Source of the DNA: Streptobacillus moniliformis DSM 12112
GTDB taxonomy: Bacteria; Fusobacteriota; Fusobacteriia; Fusobacteriales; Leptotrichiaceae
Assembly: GCF_000024565.1 (NCBI RefSeq)
Contig: NC_013515.1
Coordinates: forward strand, 850,497 to 914,496
Reading direction: 5' to 3'
DNA length: 64,000 nucleotides
The translations under genes and the position numbers were made by a program. Each line of letters starts with the position of its first letter. Within the stretch, counting starts at the first letter, position 1. The notes under the pieces were generated by a model. That model was given only the letters and a program-made list of their open reading frames with translations, was not told the DNA's origin and searched no databases. This document shows, piece by piece, positions 52,013-52,042 of the stretch.

Positions 52013-52042
52013 ATTATACCCCCCCCCATATATTTTTGTCAA
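52013..52042 (-). promoter_or_regulatory. Promoter with a G9 tract in its spacer (likely phase-variable)
   Basis: On the minus strand a perfect TTGACA (52037-52042) and a perfect TATAAT (52013-52018) enclose an 18-bp spacer. The last nine bases of the spacer, directly against the -10, are all G (52019-52027). Gain or loss of one G gives 19 or 17 bp. Slippage in such tracts is the known cause of porA and opc phase variation in Neisseria. A transcript from here should cover all barrel genes down to the terminator at 46780. Confidence 0.85.

Follow-up and report, generated by a model that had tools for sequence, protein, structure and literature searches.

Results

On the minus strand of the window, by which we mean the whole 64-kb stretch of DNA analysed, lies an outer-membrane beta-barrel gene of 685 aa (49916-51973) whose expression would be governed by the promoter directly upstream of it. 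Read on the minus strand from 52042 to 52013, this promoter is TTGACA AAAATATAT GGGGGGGGG TATAAT: a -35 box with 6/6 consensus positions (52037-52042), a non-G spacer part of 9 nt (AAAATATAT, 52028-52036), a G9 tract that is the proposed slippage switch (52019-52027) and a -10 box assigned by its sequence and sigma-70 match (52013-52018). The -35/-10 spacer is thus 18 bp long, and the anatomy given in the preliminary description was exact on re-reading. It is the sole 12/12 sigma-70 match within 46500-53100 and, like promoters of the porA type, it holds a homopolymer of at least 8 nt between recognisable -35 and -10 boxes. The ATG at 51973 lies 39 nt downstream of the promoter, with a plausible ribosome binding site found by sequence inspection (GAAAGGAA, 51979-51986, minus strand). 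A 708-aa ORF that starts inside TTGACA was considered an artefact, the ATG at 51973 being the likely start. The G9 tract is the sole G or C run of at least 6 nt in the window, where dinucleotide shuffles give a mean of 0.01 such G9 tracts. The rarity first ascribed to it therefore holds within the window; it is no lone curiosity, being one of 36 such promoters genome-wide.

The 685-aa gene has no internal stop, and its product starts with a signal peptide and ends in VEYRW. The AlphaFold2 model (mean pLDDT 79.7) shows about 28 antiparallel strands, and the best Foldseek matches are the large outer-membrane barrels FecA, SusC and LptD with TM-scores of 0.24-0.37 only; since these matches are generic and low-scoring, no function is claimed. 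A profile scan gave no Pfam or NCBIfam match, and no solved structure was found that matches by sequence. Behind it, a second barrel gene of the operon (46821-49901, minus strand) is broken, as seen by tblastn to the intact 1087-aa homologue of Streptobacillus notomytis: an in-frame stop occurs after about 70 codons, together with frame changes, and its segment C1:897317-899038 holds three TAG and one TAA. It would be cotranscribed with the 685-aa gene, and because it is broken the switch matters mainly for the latter. The proposal that everything transcribed with the barrel gene phase-varies thus concerns mostly a decayed gene. The second-barrel gene at C1:75404-77125 is broken as well, both copies having several in-frame TAG stops, and the segments common to the two loci are 88-99.7% identical, as if an already broken copy had been duplicated.

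On the other side of the promoter, a hairpin followed by TTTTTT (52064-52115, minus strand, fold of -18.0 kcal/mol), probably a terminator, likely separates the tract promoter from a truncated barrel copy upstream (52110-52811, minus strand). At C1:445,419 lies a tract-driven barrel gene whose 5' end this copy matches with 99.8% identity over 576 nt; the C-terminus of the copy derives from another barrel, and no TTGACA-G tract lies upstream of the copy. With one neighbour truncated and the other interrupted by a stop and frame changes, the 685-aa gene is, as the preliminary description had it, the only intact barrel gene here. A further copy of the C1:445,419 gene, at C1:72152-74089, is 98.6% identical over 2011 nt and is devoid of promoter and start codon. 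Both tract-less copies look like silent copies and are possible donors for gene conversion; judging from these identities, sequence exchange between barrel loci has evidently occurred. A transposase-like gene (53033-54256) lies directly upstream of the truncated copy, and its neighbourhood (window 52929-53200) recurs near C1:632,900 with 99.6% identity.

The genome to which the window belongs, that of S. moniliformis 9901T, was sequenced with Sanger and 454 technology (PMC3035246); its 1,673,280 bp comprise a chromosome of 1,662,578 bp and one further contig. It contains 40 tracts of G8 or longer, with about 0.8 expected from the base composition of the window, and 36 of the 40 have a perfect TTGACA on one side and a TATAAT-like -10 box on the other, mostly abutting the latter. 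These tract promoters follow the form TTGACA-[6-10]-G8-13-[0-2]-(TATAAT/TATACT-like), so that tracts range from G8 to G13 and spacers from 15 to 22 bp; boxes are perfect at both ends in 22 of the 36. A reversed-pattern control gave no occurrence. The orientation of all 40 tracts follows the chromosome half: 22 lie on the plus strand at 112-629 kb and 18 on the minus strand at 902-1650 kb, which would agree with the leading strand, provided that the contig begins at the origin. Co-orientation is seen in 36/36 tract promoters versus 30/39 non-tract promoters (P = 0.002). MutS is intact, hence the tracts do not sit in a repair-less background, and mismatch-repair loss as a cause was left unsupported.

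The four remaining G8+ tracts are within coding sequence. One (G9, C1:1437810-1437818) lies in frame in the signal peptide of a gene of the small-OMP family; another (G8, C1:404265-404272) is also in a small-OMP signal peptide, in a different frame from the mature protein. Of the other two, one lies within an autotransporter-like reading frame and one within a gene near 186 kb that is frameshifted. As the small-OMP family is also promoter-switched, transcriptional and translational (frameshift) switches both appear to be used. A further tract, at C1:402720-402726, lies in a small-OMP signal peptide as well; the tracts in these signal peptides are G7-G9.

Downstream genes were read in the stretches around the tracts and then scanned with Pfam and NCBIfam. 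Nearly all of them begin with a signal-peptide-like N-terminus; in a few, the start is uncertain or the gene is broken. Broken genes follow, for example, the tracts that end at 545,054, 568,554 and 205,214, and the barrel gene at 629,482 is broken too. By this reading of their sequences, nearly all tract promoters appear to lead into genes of surface or secreted proteins. YadA head, stalk or anchor domains (Pfam) mark 13 directly driven genes as trimeric autotransporters, and further YadA-type autotransporters stand behind a secreted protein of about 180 aa. Overall, the genome has 24 YadA-anchor loci, of which 17 are behind an intact tract promoter and one more is behind a relic tract (C1:1633413). 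Four tract-driven genes have pertactin/AC_1/autotransporter domains (pertactin-type autotransporters), three belong to the barrel family of the window, and about 11 encode proteins of 160-230 aa for which the predicted structures are barrels of 8 strands (mean pLDDT 81), with OmpA, PagL, NspA and OmpX as the nearest folds; a few other secreted proteins are tract-driven too. The product under control thus appears surface-exposed, from the barrel model, signal peptide and C-terminal W in the window and from the autotransporters at sibling loci. Members of the secreted family of about 180 aa (C1:191522, 267330, 1650346), for which Pfam gave no match, share their tract promoter with the large trimeric autotransporters encoded immediately downstream, and are candidate assembly partners for them.

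Pairs of homologous promoters whose flanks could be aligned were taken from S. moniliformis, represented in these comparisons by the type-strain assembly alone, S. notomytis and two other congeners. Tract length differs in 11/16 pairs, and so does spacer length (11/16). Among pairs with at least 95% identity, tracts differ in 8/12, versus indels in 4/42 A/T runs of at least 6 nt in the flanks; in one example the flanks are 98.4% identical and the tracts are G11 and G10, and some close pairs have identical tract lengths. Within S. moniliformis, the paralogue promoters at C1:545,038 and 1,101,813 have G9 and G11. Length therefore varies between homologous loci, as for a porA-type switch, and the lability anticipated for these tracts was borne out across the sibling promoters. 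Among the congener loci examined there was no spanning orthologue of the window tract, whose own lability would follow from that of its siblings. In the meningococcus, deep sequencing shows most homopolymers of at least 8 nt to be variable (PMC5084427).

Spacing was also distinctive. In the non-tract TTGACA...TATAAT promoters of the genome, spacer length peaks at 17 bp (20/39), versus 19 bp (14/22) in the tract promoters with perfect boxes (P = 2e-4). Before two barrel paralogues (C1:323675 and 1072954), interrupted, relic G tracts leave a spacer of exactly 17 bp, and possibly represent switches frozen in the on state. The interrupted tract at C1:1633413 has an exactly 17-bp spacer as well. 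Together with the optimum of 17 that PMC7864442 gives for the spacers of tp0126 and porA, these values agree with the earlier proposal that 17 bp is likely the best spacing. Given that ordinary promoters are mostly at 17 bp and tract promoters at 19 bp, most of the latter are predicted to be weak or off; in the simplest reading of these sequences, this would be the state of most of them in the reference culture, and the window gene, with its 18-bp spacer, would be intermediate, as the preliminary description proposed. A G-rich spacer could, however, shift the optimum to longer spacings, so that 19-bp promoters need not be off, and tract promoters in unrelated bacteria often have 18-19 bp too.

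At the loci examined in the congeners, tract promoters numbered 23 in S. notomytis and 13 and 3 in the two others, ahead of the same downstream protein families; the set is thus found again in S. notomytis and one more congener. Of perfect-box tract promoters, S. moniliformis has 22 and S. notomytis 21, the two other congeners have 12 and 3, and other Fusobacteriota genomes have 0-2; the pattern HGGGGGGGGH counts exact G8 runs only and is uninformative as a survey of the phylum. Outside the Fusobacteriota, genome-wide sets were found in a Candidatus Ancillula MAG (JAIRWY, 25 promoters), where TGC or TGA (extended -10) stands between tract and TATAAT, and in a rabbit-gut Bacilli MAG (CANQNZ, 20 promoters); these sets are apparently convergent. 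At 119 loci of other bacteria with G8+ promoters, spacer lengths cluster at 15-16 and again at 18-20, with few at 17; by a crude test most downstream ORFs start in a signal- or membrane-like manner.

Discussion

In this study, we describe a promoter tract in S. moniliformis that we regard, with high confidence, as a porA-type switch of transcriptional phase variation, one of 36 that would each tune a surface or secreted protein. Replication slippage would add one or a few bases to the G run or remove them from it, and the changed G count would alter the -35/-10 spacing, which is 18 bp in the assembly. RNA polymerase might then use the promoter strongly at about 17 bp, less at 18 bp and very weakly at 19 bp or more or at 15 bp or less. 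As the 36 promoters would tune their genes independently of one another, a clone would hold cells with many surface combinations, which may serve host adaptation and immune evasion. The phase-variation reading of the window tract is well supported by the observed anatomy of the promoter, the genome-wide set, the targeting of surface genes, the conservation in congeners and the differences in tract length. From these we infer slippage as the cause, reversible switching in a clone, the relation between spacing and strength in this species and the biological use.

Several known systems resemble this arrangement. In Mycoplasma hyorhinis, each member of the vlp family has a poly-A tract in its promoter spacer. 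Thus, as proposed here, every member of a gene family possesses its own homopolymer spacer switch; the vlp tracts are however poly-A and control a few genes of one lipoprotein family, whereas those of S. moniliformis are poly-G and precede at least 5 protein families. The closest likeness is to porA of Neisseria meningitidis, an outer-membrane protein gene whose poly-G tract is placed between -35 and -10, with 17 as the optimal spacing, by PMC7864442, which cites van der Ende 1995 for the tract. In contrast to this single gene, for which switching is proven, S. moniliformis has 36 promoters of the same design, with boxes near perfect consensus and putative switching, before unrelated surface families. 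In Treponema pallidum, tp0126, which encodes an OmpW homologue, likewise has a poly-G tract between -35 and -10 with an optimum of 17 nt, whereas the poly-G tract of tprL covers part of the -10 region (PMC7864442), unlike the promoter tracts of S. moniliformis, 36/36 of which lie in the spacer. Neisseria opc shares with our locus a homopolymer in the promoter of an outer-membrane protein gene, but its poly-C tract spans the -35 region (PMC7864442); the preliminary description, which placed the porA and opc tracts at the same site as ours, was therefore right for porA and not for opc. At our locus, an opc-type promoter was ruled out by the perfect TTGACA 9 nt upstream of the tract, and a tprL-type promoter, with its tract over or downstream of the -10 box, by the end of the tract immediately before TATAAT.

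It might be argued that the G tract works as a fixed part of the promoter, through DNA shape or as a regulator site for the joint control of surface genes, and that its changes in length are noise. Indeed, the 36 promoters share position, strand and similar neighbours (TTGACAAAA...), the G is on the coding strand throughout with the significant co-orientation reported above, and a CRP homologue of T. pallidum acts with poly-G promoters (PMC7864442). We nevertheless consider this explanation unlikely: a spacing-sensitive sigma-70 polymerase would hardly ignore a range of G8-G13 and of 15-22 bp in a single genome, near-identical homologues differ in tract length, and the relic interrupted tracts stand at 17 bp. 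Still more improbable is that the promoters are real but invariant and that the tract lengths are artefacts of sequencing or assembly. The type-strain genome is a Sanger/454 hybrid, in which homopolymer length is error-prone, and the congener assemblies are fragmented drafts; however, the length differences between assemblies run both ways, which argues against a one-sided sequencing error, and two paralogues of the same genome have G9 and G11. Moreover, other spacer changes fall outside the homopolymer count (AAATATC-G9 versus AAATATCGTGT-G9, with identical 200-nt upstream flanks), and the tracts themselves are present in independent genomes.

The barrel copies raise another scenario, in which expression is switched by DNA inversion or by recombination between copies and the G tract is incidental. 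Near-identical tract-less copies exist (99.8% over 576 nt and 98.6% over 2011 nt), from which it follows that recombination among copies does happen. Those copies share coding sequence and not promoters, though, and an invertible promoter was ruled out at our locus, where the promoter is flanked only by short, imperfect inverted repeats (10-13 nt, 83-90%) at chance level for AT-rich DNA. We thus judge it very improbable, marginally more so than an artefact, that this scenario explains the switch. Phase variation by slippage and exchange between copies could also act together: we tentatively propose, as a speculation that may well prove wrong, a two-layer antigenic variation in the genus, in which some three dozen G-tract switches on most surface adhesins would be complemented by tract-less near-identical copies (52811-52110 and C1:72,152) trading sequence with the switched loci, a standardised promoter set having also arisen independently in unrelated host-associated bacteria.

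S. moniliformis is the cause of rat-bite fever, and its pathogenesis mechanisms have been called "completely unexplored" in a comparative-genomics paper (PMC5093955) that makes no mention of homopolymers or phase variation. The open-access literature searched yielded nothing of relevance on phase variation or homopolymers in Streptobacillus. The mechanism is known from porA and tp0126; its use as a near-universal promoter of surface genes appears to be undescribed in the open literature. With boxes that are nearly identical and spacers that range over 15-22 bp, the 36 promoters also form a natural library for the effect of a G-rich spacer on promoter strength. To conclude, provided that the switches are functional, S. 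moniliformis would have a surface coat made up of 36 independently flipping genes, and serology, vaccine and typing work based on single colonies would see one combination of them.
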